Virus record (IMG/VR): IMGVR_UViG_3300049740_002562
Span: 1 to 26,175 of that record
From: a virus
DNA length: 26,175 nucleotides
Direction: 5' to 3' (one strand)
In this document: piece after piece, positions 1,437 through 5,392 of the stretch
How positions within the stretch are numbered: the first letter of the stretch is position 1
Layout of the letters: each line of letters opens with the position of its first letter
The notes under the pieces: generated by a model
Database searches by the model: none
Seen by the model: only the letters and a program-made list of their open reading frames with translations
Told to the model about the DNA's origin: nothing
Translations under genes and position numbers: made by a program

Positions 1437-3518
1437 CTACATAGCAACAGATGCTGGAATATTGCCGGGAGTAGTTCCTATAGCTCCAATTCTAGCATTC
1501 TCTTGCTGTTGAATTTGAAAGGTTAATTGATCAGAGTATTTTTCAAGCCTAGCTCTAAACTTTTCATCTTGTTGTAATCTAGCCTGAATGTCCTCGCCTC
1601 CTATATCTTCAGTACCTTGAAGATATTGCTGAATTACTTGCAATCTAAGCTGAGGATTTATTCCTTGCTGGGGTGCATTGACCACCTGACCACTTGAGAT
1701 TTTCGCTAGATCATTGCTAGTTTCGATTATCTCTTTAGTCGAAGCTTCTTGCTGTGGAATCAATAATTGATCCGACAAATTCGGATCAATTGCATCTATA
1801 AAAACTCTAAGGTACTGGTCGAACCTACTCACTCCGCTTCTATCAAACTGCCCCATGATCTTACCGATCATTTCAAGCTTTTGTACGACTTTCTCCTCGT
1901 CGTTGTTCATCGAATTAAAGGTAAGATTGAAATCATAAGTAGATGCCATTTCATCCATAATGATATTTTGACCACGAGAATTGGAGGTCACTCTGAACCA
2001 GACATCCGTATTGTAAGCTCGATCTAATGCCCACATCTTTGAAAGCACTTGGCTAAATCCTTGTAGAAAATTGTTTATCAAAGATTGGCGTATCAAGTTT
2101 GCCTCTACTGCATCATTTGGATCAGTAGCTCTGCCAGTTAATTTATCAGCTAACTGCCTAATTTGCATTTCCACCTGAAGGTTTTCGTTTGCATTACCTC
2201 TAGGTACTTCCATGAACCCGATGTCCCCTCTCCTCCTCACGCTGACTTGTGCGCCAGCTCCCAATTTTTCGGGTCTTGATCCAATCCGAAATTCAACTGG
2301 TGGACAAGTAGTCAAAGATTCGCGGTCTTTTCGTGCGTCCATGCAACTCTTCACAGCTTGTTGATAGGAGCGAAGCATTTCAGGGTATCCACGGCTATCC
2401 AGTAGTCTTCTTGATAGATGCTCGCGAGTAATTGCTACAAATGGATATTTTCCTGCATCTACTGACATAGTGTAGGTTTTTGCATAGCCTTCAGCTTGTT
2501 CGCTAAAACAAGTGTAGGTGCAGACAGGAATGCCATCCTCGTCAATTTCCTTGCGGTAACAGCTTATTAAACGAACCAAGCCATCATAATGATCAGGTGC
2601 ATCATGCTGTCCTGACATAACAGCCTCAGAGTAACCATCGTATTTATGATCATAGTCACCAGTTGTGTTAGTTATTACTTCATCTACGAAATCTTGGTCA
2701 AAACCTTCAGTTTTAACCTTCTCCTTTAATTGTTCAGGAGAGTAGTAATTGACTGTGTATACAGCTCTTGCTGATTGTAAATCGAGAATATTGCTATCAA
2801 TAATTAGATCACGACCCAGCTCGTAAGCTCGAATCATAGGTCGATTAGTAATGACCTTTTCCTGTGGTATTTCAGTCACTCCTTTCGACTTCAATTCACG
2901 ATACATTTTATTAATTCGTTTCTTAGAAAGATTAGGGAAGGCATTTTGGAATATCTCCAAAATGCCCCCCTTCATTTCATCGTCAGATATAGCAGAACCT
3001 ATGTCAGGAGAGAGAGCTGAAATCTCCTGAAGGGTGATGGGCTGAAGAACCCTAGTCACCTCACGACGAAAATGTACTCCTAAAAAGCAAAAACCTTGCT
3101 CTAGTAAATAGTTCGCTGCCACTCCAACTTCACGAGGAAGTTCCTCCATGGTAGACATCCTCCATCTCATAAATTGAGTAACAATGGCTGATGTAGTTAT
3201 GTCATTAGATTCAACTGGAGAAGCAATCAAATTGCCTCGATTTACTGCACTCTTGATGAGTGCAATATCACCATCAATAAGCGGAGTTACAAGGTTCGGC
3301 TCTAAGTCAGATGCTCCTTGCCAAGGGAAAGCGTCAGGGTCTTCCTTACGACCTGTTTTACTTTTCCCAGCCCATACATTTCTGCGAATGTCCCTAGCCT
3401 CTTCGGCTAGGTCTAGGTAGTAAGAAAGGTTGTGCCGACATCTATCAAAATCACTTTTAAGAAAGTCAATGTCCGGCTTAGTTTCATGTTCATAAAGCTC
3501 ATTTTCCTGTTCTGCCAT
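1437..3518 (-). CDS. phage portal protein (head-tail connector)
   Basis: The protein is 693 aa, a typical length for the large P22-like class of portals. The dodecameric portal ring sits at one capsid vertex and is the channel through which TerL pumps DNA. The N-terminal part has ARDIRRNVWAGKSKTGRKED then PFPWQGASDLEPNLVTPLI-like sequence (here DAFPWQGASDLEPNLVTPLI). That 'PWxGASD' signature before a helix-rich region is one I associate with phage portals. The C-terminus is Gln-rich and disordered-looking, as in many portals. The ATG at 3518 has only a weak purine stretch upstream. It lies a few bases downstream of a small HTH gene and 4 bp upstream of the 51 aa gene. No catalytic motif is expected in this family. 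The call rests on length, signature and context with TerL. Confidence 0.8.
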   Translation of the reverse strand: MAEQENELYEHETKPDIDFLKSDFDRCRHNLSYYLDLAEEARDIRRNVWAGKSKTGRKEDPDAFPWQGASDLEPNLVTPLIDGDIALIKSAVNRGNLIASPVESNDITTSAIVTQFMRWRMSTMEELPREVGVAANYLLEQGFCFLGVHFRREVTRVLQPITLQEISALSPDIGSAISDDEMKGGILEIFQNAFPNLSKKRINKMYRELKSKGVTEIPQEKVITNRPMIRAYELGRDLIIDSNILDLQSARAVYTVNYYSPEQLKEKVKTEGFDQDFVDEVITNTTGDYDHKYDGYSEAVMSGQHDAPDHYDGLVRLISCYRKEIDEDGIPVCTYTCFSEQAEGYAKTYTMSVDAGKYPFVAITREHLSRRLLDSRGYPEMLRSYQQAVKSCMDARKDRESLTTCPPVEFRIGSRPEKLGAGAQVSVRRRGDIGFMEVPRGNANENLQVEMQIRQLADKLTGRATDPNDAVEANLIRQSLINNFLQGFSQVLSKMWALDRAYNTDVWFRVTSNSRGQNIIMDEMASTYDFNLTFNSMNNDEEKVVQKLEMIGKIMGQFDRSGVSRFDQYLRVFIDAIDPNLSDQLLIPQQEASTKEIIETSNDLAKISSGQVVNAPQQGINPQLRLQVIQQYLQGTEDIGGEDIQARLQQDEKFRARLEKYSDQLTFQIQQQENARIGAIGTTPGNIPASVAM

Positions 3519-3526
3519 TTTTCTTA

Positions 3527-3757
3527 TTATGTCAACAGCTCCCTAGCCTTGCTCAAGGCACTCTCCTGAAGTCGTCTGATATGGTCTTTTGAACATCCAC
3601 AAAAGTTTGCTATCTCACGCTGTGTAAATACCGGGAGTGGTTCATTTCTCCGCATTGCATATAAGGTTGCTTCGACAAACATACACTTGAGCATGGCATT
3701 TATACGATCATTTCGCTCCTGCATAGATTCTTCAAACTTGTCGGTATAATTCTTCAT
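3527..3757 (-). CDS. small HTH protein resembling sigma-70 region 4 (76 aa)
   Basis: The protein is 76 aa. Its C-terminal half reads FTQREIANFCGCSKDHIRRL followed by QESALSKARELL, which matches the sigma-70 region 4 helix-turn-helix pattern (LTxxEIAxxxGxSxxxVxxIExxALxKLR). There is no region 2, so alone it cannot be a full sigma factor. A DNA-binding regulator, or an anti- or co-sigma acting at -35 elements, is an inference. It starts at ATG 3757, overlapping the upstream HTH gene by 26 bp, and sits directly before the portal gene. Such mini region-4 proteins are common in phages with unclear roles. Confidence 0.65.
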   Translation of the reverse strand: MKNYTDKFEESMQERNDRINAMLKCMFVEATLYAMRRNEPLPVFTQREIANFCGCSKDHIRRLQESALSKARELLT

Positions 3758-4055
3758 CAGTTGTTTCTACTTTCTTCACTTGTAGAGGCTTGCCGGGAAC
3801 ATTAAACAACCCAGCTTTGACCACACATTTTGCCCACTTTTCTTTGTTACCGAAATGAATCAGGATGATTCTAGGATTTGGGCAAATCTTGTATACCCAT
3901 GCATCTTGAGCTTGTGGCTGAATTGCTTCCTCATTCTTGATTATTTTAATCACCGATGTTCGGCTGACCTTTACTTCTTTTGATATTTTGTCATAGGACA
4001 GACCTTCCTCTCTCAGCATCAAAATTCTTTTTTTCTTACCATCTGAAATCTTCAT
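3732..4055 (-). CDS. small HTH DNA-binding protein (107 aa)
   Basis: A resolvase- or homeodomain-like helix-turn-helix occupies about residues 9-38 (RILMLREEGLSYDKISKEVK then VSRTSVIKIIKN). The C-terminal 60 residues form a small domain of unknown type. I choose ATG 4055 because it overlaps the methyltransferase TGA as ATGA, the same coupling used across this operon. An upstream ATG at 4091 would give 119 aa with a 40-bp overlap. It lies between the methyltransferase and the region-4-like gene. A transcriptional regulator or a DNA-binding packaging accessory are both possible. Confidence 0.6.
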   Translation of the reverse strand: MKISDGKKKRILMLREEGLSYDKISKEVKVSRTSVIKIIKNEEAIQPQAQDAWVYKICPNPRIILIHFGNKEKWAKCVVKAGLFNVPGKPLQVKKVETTDEELYRQV

Positions 4056-5392
4056 ATCTTCGTTACTAAACTGATCCTCCTTGCTATCCATTCCATCACA
4101 TGAGCGGTGATGCCATTTCCCAGCATTTTATATCTTGGCGCATCTTTTACCTCGATGACCTTACCTTTCTTTATCCAGCGGTTTCCTACTAGTTCCAAGT
4201 CCTCGCGGTATTTTGTAAAATTGTCAGTTAAACCTTGGAGACGCTCAGCCTCTAGTGGTGTAATTCTGCGAACGAGTAAATCATGTGCTACAGCGTTTTT
4301 ATCTGCTGAAGTTAAGGTGTATTGAACACCTTCATCACTTACCCCAAGACCATTAGAGTCAGACCTTTTGTTTCGTCCAATAGACTTACCAGCCAAGGCT
4401 ACTGCATGAGCTACACCTATTCCTTCTCCACCTTGCTGTGAGCGAAGTGTTAAGCATACATCCTCTTTACCCTTTGGTGTTATGTCACCATTCCAGCAAC
4501 AGACCTTTGCTCCAGTTGCGTTACTTATACCGGTAGCAGTAGTTATTGTCGGAGCTACATCTCCTGTGACTACTCCAGCATAAACATTGCAACCAGCTAC
4601 CAGCGGTAAATTATTTCCTCCTGTCCCTGCCTTTTGTGTAATTGTCGGGCAAAGGTCTCCACAATCTTTTATTCTAGAGTCTTGTCCGTGGTTTTCATAG
4701 CAGACAACTCTAACGCTTTTCTCAGCATCAGAGGCAACGATTCCAGCTTCCCTCTTTTTTCTGCCCTCCTTAAAATGCCCTGACACGCGGTGCTTGAAAG
4801 AGAATATTTCTTCAATGGCTTCTGCTCCAAGATCGACGAGAGTCCCAAGTACAAACACTCGCATCCTCCGCTGAGGGACGGCTCTCCTAACTCCTCGTTT
4901 GTCGCCCCCTCGATCCTGTGGAAAACTGAAGGCGACGTGTTGACTGTCCAAGTGCGTCCATCCGACTTCACGATGCCCGACTTCGGATAAGTCTTTGATG
5001 AGCCTAGCAAAGTCGTCTTTATCTCCGCTGGACATAAGTCCTGCAACGTTTTCGGCAAGCGAGAGGATAAGCCCACGCTCTTTAAGGTCGGAAATAATTC
5101 TGATTGCTTCTCCATATAAATTGCTCCTTTCACCATCTATGCCTTTACGCTTCCCGGCTAAAGAAAGGTCTTGGCATGGGAATGAATATAAAACTCCGTC
5201 TGCATCGGGTAGATCAGATGCTTCTACTTTTTCGATGTCTGAAAACAATGGGACATCAGGAAAGTTGTATGCAAAGACTCCTGCTGATTGTTTGTCGTTT
5301 TCGATACCAGCGACAATTTCGTGTCTTGCTCTATGAAGCCCAAGGTCACCACACCCTGCTCCGCTGAACATTGAAATCCAGCGAAATGCCAC
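4052..5392 (-). CDS. phage C5-cytosine DNA methyltransferase (Dcm family)
   Basis: It transfers a methyl group from S-adenosylmethionine to cytosine C5 in a specific DNA site, probably to protect phage DNA from host restriction. Motifs in order: motif I FSGAGCGDLGL (residues 9-19), motif IV FPCQDLSLAG with catalytic Cys73, motif VI ENV (114-116), motif VIII QRRMRVFVLG (174-183), a long target-recognition region with TITTATGISNATGA-type repeats, motif IX RRITPLEAERLQG (about 375) and motif X MLGNGITAHVMEW (about 423). All key residues are present, so it should be active. The start is GTG 5392, overlapping the preceding TAG as TAGTG; an internal ATG lies at 5371. No restriction enzyme gene is nearby, so it is an orphan enzyme. 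About a dozen extra residues (DRGGDKRGVRRA) precede motif VIII. A second frame is nested inside. Confidence 0.92.
   Translation of the reverse strand: MAFRWISMFSGAGCGDLGLHRARHEIVAGIENDKQSAGVFAYNFPDVPLFSDIEKVEASDLPDADGVLYSFPCQDLSLAGKRKGIDGERSNLYGEAIRIISDLKERGLILSLAENVAGLMSSGDKDDFARLIKDLSEVGHREVGWTHLDSQHVAFSFPQDRGGDKRGVRRAVPQRRMRVFVLGTLVDLGAEAIEEIFSFKHRVSGHFKEGRKKREAGIVASDAEKSVRVVCYENHGQDSRIKDCGDLCPTITQKAGTGGNNLPLVAGCNVYAGVVTGDVAPTITTATGISNATGAKVCCWNGDITPKGKEDVCLTLRSQQGGEGIGVAHAVALAGKSIGRNKRSDSNGLGVSDEGVQYTLTSADKNAVAHDLLVRRITPLEAERLQGLTDNFTKYREDLELVGNRWIKKGKVIEVKDAPRYKMLGNGITAHVMEWIARRISLVTKI
4669..5115 (-). CDS. out-of-frame ORF nested in the methyltransferase gene (148 aa)
   Basis: A same-strand, different-frame ORF lies wholly inside the methyltransferase. 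ATG 5115 is preceded by AAAGGAG at 5130-5124 with an 8-nt spacer, a better ribosome site than most late genes here have. The C-terminal half reads LSSILEQKPLKKYSLSSTAC then QGILRRAEKRGK and LPLMLRKALE. I recall this pattern (SLSDILE...YYLSxxACxGILRRAEKRGKxLPxxLxxAL) in phage proteins found with cytosine methyltransferases. The overlapped methyltransferase stretch (RVSGHFKEGRKKREAG) corresponds to a motif I also recall as conserved there. Both frames therefore look constrained. The role is unknown; a partner or modifier of the methyltransferase is only a guess. An earlier start at 5136 is possible. Confidence 0.6.
   Translation of the reverse strand: MEKQSELFPTLKSVGLSSRLPKTLQDLCPAEIKTTLLGSSKTYPKSGIVKSDGRTWTVNTSPSVFHRIEGATNEELGEPSLSGGCECLYLGLSSILEQKPLKKYSLSSTACQGILRRAEKRGKLESLPLMLRKALELSAMKTTDKTLE

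Follow-up and report, generated by a model that had tools for sequence, protein, structure and literature searches.

A cytosine-5 DNA methyltransferase (MTase) gene in the viral DNA analysed here (the window: the whole stretch of 26,175 nt) almost certainly contains a second, overlapping protein-coding gene, as judged from the way its sequence varies among relatives. The nested gene lies on the same strand, in the +1 frame of the MTase (Table 1). We consider it highly probable that this one stretch of DNA yields two proteins, the nested one by internal initiation. The "two-in-one gene" proposed in the initial annotation is thus supported on three grounds: (i) the open frame, (ii) the codon phase of sequence variation, and (iii) a drop in synonymous change across the overlap. 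More broadly, the nested frame probably represents an unrecognised protein family, encoded solely by the +1 frame of orphan cytosine MTases of phages across many bacterial phyla (phage P1 included). It would have originated by overprinting and be obligately linked to the enzyme, with a role perhaps in controlling it or in countering methylation-dependent restriction.

Table 1. Features of the MTase gene and its nested frame (window coordinates).
Feature	Position	Strand	Details
Cytosine-5 DNA MTase gene	4052..5392	-	446 aa, GTG start; PF00145 (E 2.2e-41); TIGR00675 (dcm); phrog_116
Nested overlapping gene (likely start ATG 5115)	4669..5115	-	148 aa; inside the MTase gene, +1 frame
Alternative start ATG 5136	4669..5136	-	155 aa ORF; start not conserved
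AAAGGAG, Shine-Dalgarno-like	5124..5130	-	8 nt before ATG 5115; from MTase GERS codons
Nested N-terminal ~91 residues	4843..5115	-	over MTase motifs VI-VIII; predicted disordered, pLDDT about 44
Nested C-terminal domain, residues 92-145	4681..4842	-	three predicted helices; core pLDDT 83-96
Near-invariant core of the nested protein, ACQGILRRAEKRGK	4747..4788	-	MTase frame reads SGHFKEGRKKREA
MTase motif VIII (PQRRMRVF)	4853..4877	-	MTase frame, within the overlap
MTase motif IX (RRITPLEAERLQGL)	4230..4271	-	MTase frame only, downstream of the overlap

Both frames are under selection in close relatives

The host gene is laid out as motifs I-VIII, variable target-recognition modules, and motifs IX and X. 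Its class is given by frame 0, which matches PF00145 and TIGR00675 and holds motifs IV (PCQ), VI (ENV), VIII (QRRxR), IX and X in a single chain. Inside this gene, the minus-strand ORF at 4669-5136 that the initial annotation placed in another frame is present at an offset of +1, and synonymous shuffling of the window MTase puts its openness beyond chance: 10.3 stops are expected in the overlap, and none of 20,000 shuffles was free of them. The longest +1 run in the window MTase is 155 codons, compared with a shuffled mean of 60 and a 99th percentile of 108.

Four viral contigs (L001, L002, L003 and L005), which together with the window we call the window family, were aligned with it by codon. 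Their identity to the window is 73-86% for the MTase and 83-94% for the nested frame. The initial annotation had suggested checking close homologues for stops in the alternate frame and the overlap for reduced synonymous change. None of the four contigs interrupts the nested frame, and MTase pS, which is 0.50 upstream and 0.68 downstream, falls about five- to seven-fold to 0.10 across the overlap; MTase pN is flat across all three regions, at about 0.06-0.09. The fastest-changing nucleotide position in the overlap is MTase position 1, which is the nested wobble position (0.146 vs 0.059 and 0.067). An OLGenie-style count, in our own implementation written for this analysis, gives a nested-frame dN/dS of 0.15-0.32 in the overlap, with N- and C-terminal parts alike, compared with 0.67-1.47 for the same pseudo-frame outside the overlap. 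Purifying selection acts on both frames. After the overlap, the variable region of the MTase (window positions 4300-4700, minus strand) is modular: the four contigs have different numbers and kinds of modules, which resemble swappable target-recognition modules.

The nested frame accompanies the MTase in distant phages

A tblastn search with the window's nested protein returned 129 phage records (E up to 1), and one with the version from Enterobacter phage CobraSix returned 151 (E up to 0.001). Eight phage records were opened. In seven (P1, CobraSix, MA11, JK004, Pan4, DMCA and NatCom_28274) the motif lies at +1 to the annotated MTase; in the eighth, Mycobacterium phage Thibault, the nested frame is annotated as a gene of its own, gp104. 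The same +1 frame encodes the peptide pattern LSxILE..YxLSxxACxGILRRAxxRGKxLPxxLxxAL in distant phages, and the C-terminal pattern that the initial annotation had matched to phage proteins associated with Dcm enzymes turns out to be the near-invariant core across phage loci. Pattern scans yielded at least 591 confirmed stretches in viral contigs and at least 579 in bacterial genomes, while a second viral scan yielded at least 577 that may share loci with the other scans; all such locus counts are lower bounds, and include close relatives unless dereplicated.

The MTase frame is open at the same offset in 177 of 177 loci, 176 of which have motif VIII. In a further set it is open in 79 of 80; the lone exception, L254, has an interrupted MTase and an intact nested frame. 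The association was also approached from the enzyme's side, with 80 viral MTases gathered by the MTase N-terminus alone, upstream of the overlap and blind to the motif: 78 of these carry the +1 motif. The negative control, K-12 dcm, has no motif, and its +1 frame contains 14 stops. Carriers include phage P1 as well as phages of gut, soil and marine origin, and most of the related enzymes examined keep the nested frame. Of 5426 complete E. coli genomes, 493 (about 9%) have the P1-type ORF, with 487 of its 497 places on plasmids. That annotation misses the nested frame, as had been anticipated, is borne out by the E. coli matches listed, 15 of 15 of which name only a Dam-family methyltransferase; among the eight phage records opened, Thibault gp104 is the annotated case.

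No free-standing copy of the nested protein was found among about 340 loci. Two candidates were rejected: L254, where the N-half of the MTase overlaps at +1, and Thibault gp104, which is an alternate-frame piece of an interrupted MTase locus. Matches to independent proteins, which the initial annotation had also raised, were therefore obtained only in part: other phage sequences do match, but in the same overlapping frame, and no copy stands free. Because three loci (L272, L323 and L334) have an open MTase frame and a truncated or degraded nested motif, the nested frame is not indispensable and can be lost; these are apparent losses of the nested gene.

Insertions occur in some MTase loci. The Thibault methylase locus (L018:1320-3450) is broken by annotated HNH genes, with gp104 lying between them in the nested frame. 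The MTase of L254 is split into two ORFs (1549-2571 and 2715-3839), with an intein-like insertion in the N-half and the nested frame intact. In dmt of one phage P1 isolate (L011:838-3879) and of several relatives, an intein-like insertion sits directly after the PC of the catalytic motif.

Start site of the nested gene

In the window, the AAAGGAG noted by the initial annotation lies exactly 8 nt upstream of ATG 5115 and, as claimed, is built from the codons of the MTase GERS motif. In the codon alignment it is copied exactly in L001, reads AAAGAAG in L002, and is absent from L003 and L005. ATG 5115 is the likely start on comparative grounds, because all five members of the window family (the window, L001, L002, L003 and L005) have it, L003 and L005 lack ATG 5136, and MTase synonymous change in the family begins to drop at around ATG 5115. 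Of the two positions given initially, ATG 5115 is thus retained, but the ORF edge at 5136 is not.

A start codon is conserved in P1-type genes too, of which 31 distinct sequences were compared. At the start site, the MTase codon is AAT in 22 of 22 cases of Asn, GAT in 8 of 8 of Asp, and CAT in the single case of His, giving a +1 ATG in 31 of 31; background Asn codons are AAT in 292 cases and AAC in 367. The Val codon before the start is GTG in 30 of 31, and most have GTGGA(A/G) about 8 nt upstream. Across 127 dereplicated loci, no other column is as enriched in +1 ATG as this one (49 vs 23 expected). A conserved start codon of its own is hence seen for the nested frame in both groups (31/31 P1-type, 5/5 window family). 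The start site does not share a single column across all clades, and the Shine-Dalgarno sequence is not conserved across the window family.

A programmed ribosomal frameshift close to motif VIII, producing a shortened MTase that ends in the conserved helical tail, would account for two features of the data: the conserved part of the nested protein is C-terminal, and in distant phages the strongest nested constraint begins around motif VIII. We regard it as improbable, although it is the best placed of the alternatives. A shift there has no need of an open +1 frame further upstream, yet in 95% of the 127 dereplicated loci the nested frame is open for at least 77 codons ahead of motif VIII. In a set of 62 dereplicated loci, 61 keep it open over the interval from -80 to -8 codons relative to the conserved LSxxLE, where 17 would be expected to (log10 p -43.7, if dereplicated loci are taken as independent). 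The window's AAAAAAG run, the one such run compared in the codon alignment, is not kept in close relatives. Internal initiation is favoured because the upstream frame is open, P1-type genes conserve the +1 ATG, and the start column is the most enriched. Under internal initiation, reading of frame 0 would give the MTase, while some ribosomes would start at the internal ATG directly after the MTase GxRS motif and read the +1 frame. This would produce a distinct protein, about 145 aa long, whose end lies a little beyond the motif VIII region. The sequence data suggest that the nested protein is made in cells in this manner.

Comparison with known systems

The second chain of the cytosine-5 MTase M.EcoHK31I is read from another frame of the gene for the large chain. 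Both M.AquI and M.EcoHK31I consist of two chains, the second carrying motif IX or motifs IX and X (PMC3404938). The window resembles these enzymes in having a second polypeptide tied to a cytosine-5 MTase, and the nested frame might accordingly be the recognition-half subunit, or a remnant, of a split MTase. A few loci look the part: in L129, L237 and L253 the MTase frame stops and the +1 ORF continues into the MTase C-half with motifs IX and X, and in L251/L252 the +1 ORF continues for about 230 residues. The fused cases, however, resemble single-base indels downstream of the motif. In the window and most loci, motifs VIII and IX occupy one MTase ORF; the window's MTase frame holds both IX and X, and the nested ORF stops with neither. 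A split MTase is therefore a very unlikely reading. Owing to the appearance of their junctions, the L129, L237 and L253 fusions were also set aside as evidence of translation.

These joined arrangements (L129:2656-3933, L237:2261-3559 and L253:2246-4036) illustrate a possible route to split methyltransferases. In L251/L252 (2279-3370), the nested ORF is 364 aa long and the MTase is in two frame-0 ORFs, with IX and X in the second.

Other known cases differ in kind. ShiLan is an out-of-frame HNH endonuclease in actinophage methylases, a mobile insertion with a patchy presence (PMC11855218). The nested ORF is likewise out of frame in a phage DNA methylase and unseen by annotation. It differs in that the nested protein has no HNH match in Pfam or NCBIfam, and in that its motif occurs in 78 of 80 motif-blind MTases rather than patchily. 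Phage P1 Dmt and related orphan phage MTases (phrog_116) are of the same kind as the window MTase, and P1 dmt has the +1 ORF with its conserved ATG. It is annotated only as a methyltransferase, and among the open-access papers found on overlapping genes in Dcm or P1 dmt, none describes the nested frame or a second product. Another parallel is with viral overlapping genes that arise by overprinting (reviewed in PMC8227390), in which a newer frame is imposed on an older gene; overprinting on an older MTase is the most likely origin of the nested gene. Unlike those examples, it would be a new family, situated on an enzyme gene of double-stranded DNA tailed phages with a very wide host range.

Conservation follows the nested frame after motif VIII

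In 80 dereplicated loci, nested codon positions 1 and 2 show near-zero diversity and position 3 shows about 0.5. Most of the residues A, C, G, I, L, R, R, A, L, P, L, A and L of the nested protein are near-fixed, and the MTase residues opposite fixed nested residues after motif VIII are variable. Over motif VIII the pattern is reversed, with the MTase frame conserved and the nested frame not. The motif-blind MTase set gives the same codon-phase picture. The MTase-frame stretch that the initial annotation described as recurring (GHFKEGRKKREAG) does recur, but after motif VIII the nested reading is the better conserved of the two, so the stretch is mostly a side effect of the +1 frame. Comparison of P1-like genes in pairs gives an MTase pS of 0.53-0.57 ahead of the nested ORF; the value is 0.32-0.40 once the nested ORF has begun, 0.09-0.22 within the nested core and 0.48-0.65 past the nested ORF. 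In all clades sampled, it is the C-terminal ~50 residues of the nested protein that drive conservation.

The window family shows a stretch of about 380 nt with suppressed synonymous sites, as might be expected if a DNA or RNA element (e.g., a recombination site or RNA structure) rather than a protein lay behind the constraint. Such an element would not follow the nested codon phase, and since positions 1 and 2 are fixed, position 3 is free, and nested dN/dS is low, we hold this to be very improbable indeed. Least credible of all is a chance open frame or a shadow of conserved MTase peptide: much of the nested N-terminus outside the window family is a +1 reading of conserved MTase motifs, but the shuffles exclude chance openness, and the codon phase of variation refutes this reading, since past motif VIII the nested residues are fixed where those of the MTase vary.

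Possible roles and significance

Since the nested protein was never found apart from the MTase, we tentatively favour a role as an accessory or regulatory partner of the enzyme, though this is rather less than an even prospect. Ranked second, and more doubtful, is a counter-restriction factor that would protect the methylating phage.

Orphan phage cytosine MTases are common and handled as single-product genes. If a second protein is made by most of one large subfamily, knockouts, cloning and annotation (including those of P1 dmt) will have mixed two genes, and tailed phages would have a same-strand nested gene that is both widespread and deeply conserved. The case illustrates how annotation rules hide nested genes, and phage P1 offers a standard laboratory system for testing this one.

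Predicted structure and database matches

AlphaFold2 was applied to the 148 aa nested protein with 39 sequences in the alignment. In the model, the first ~90 residues are disordered, and the helices at residues 92-145 are confident over the last two; the C-terminal 64 aa modelled alone give the same helical fold. The N-terminus is under strong constraint in the window family (dN/dS 0.16-0.30) and mild constraint outside it. The C-terminal three-helix basic domain is the probable working part of the nested protein. Foldseek and VIA-align searches of the PDB, run on both the complete model and the C-terminal domain, found no significant relative; the domain is small. No Pfam or NCBIfam family matches the nested protein. 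The sole match of the nested frame in PHROGs is phrog_16143, a 139-column family labelled "DNA methyltransferase", a label that perhaps arises from phage genes called in the nested frame.
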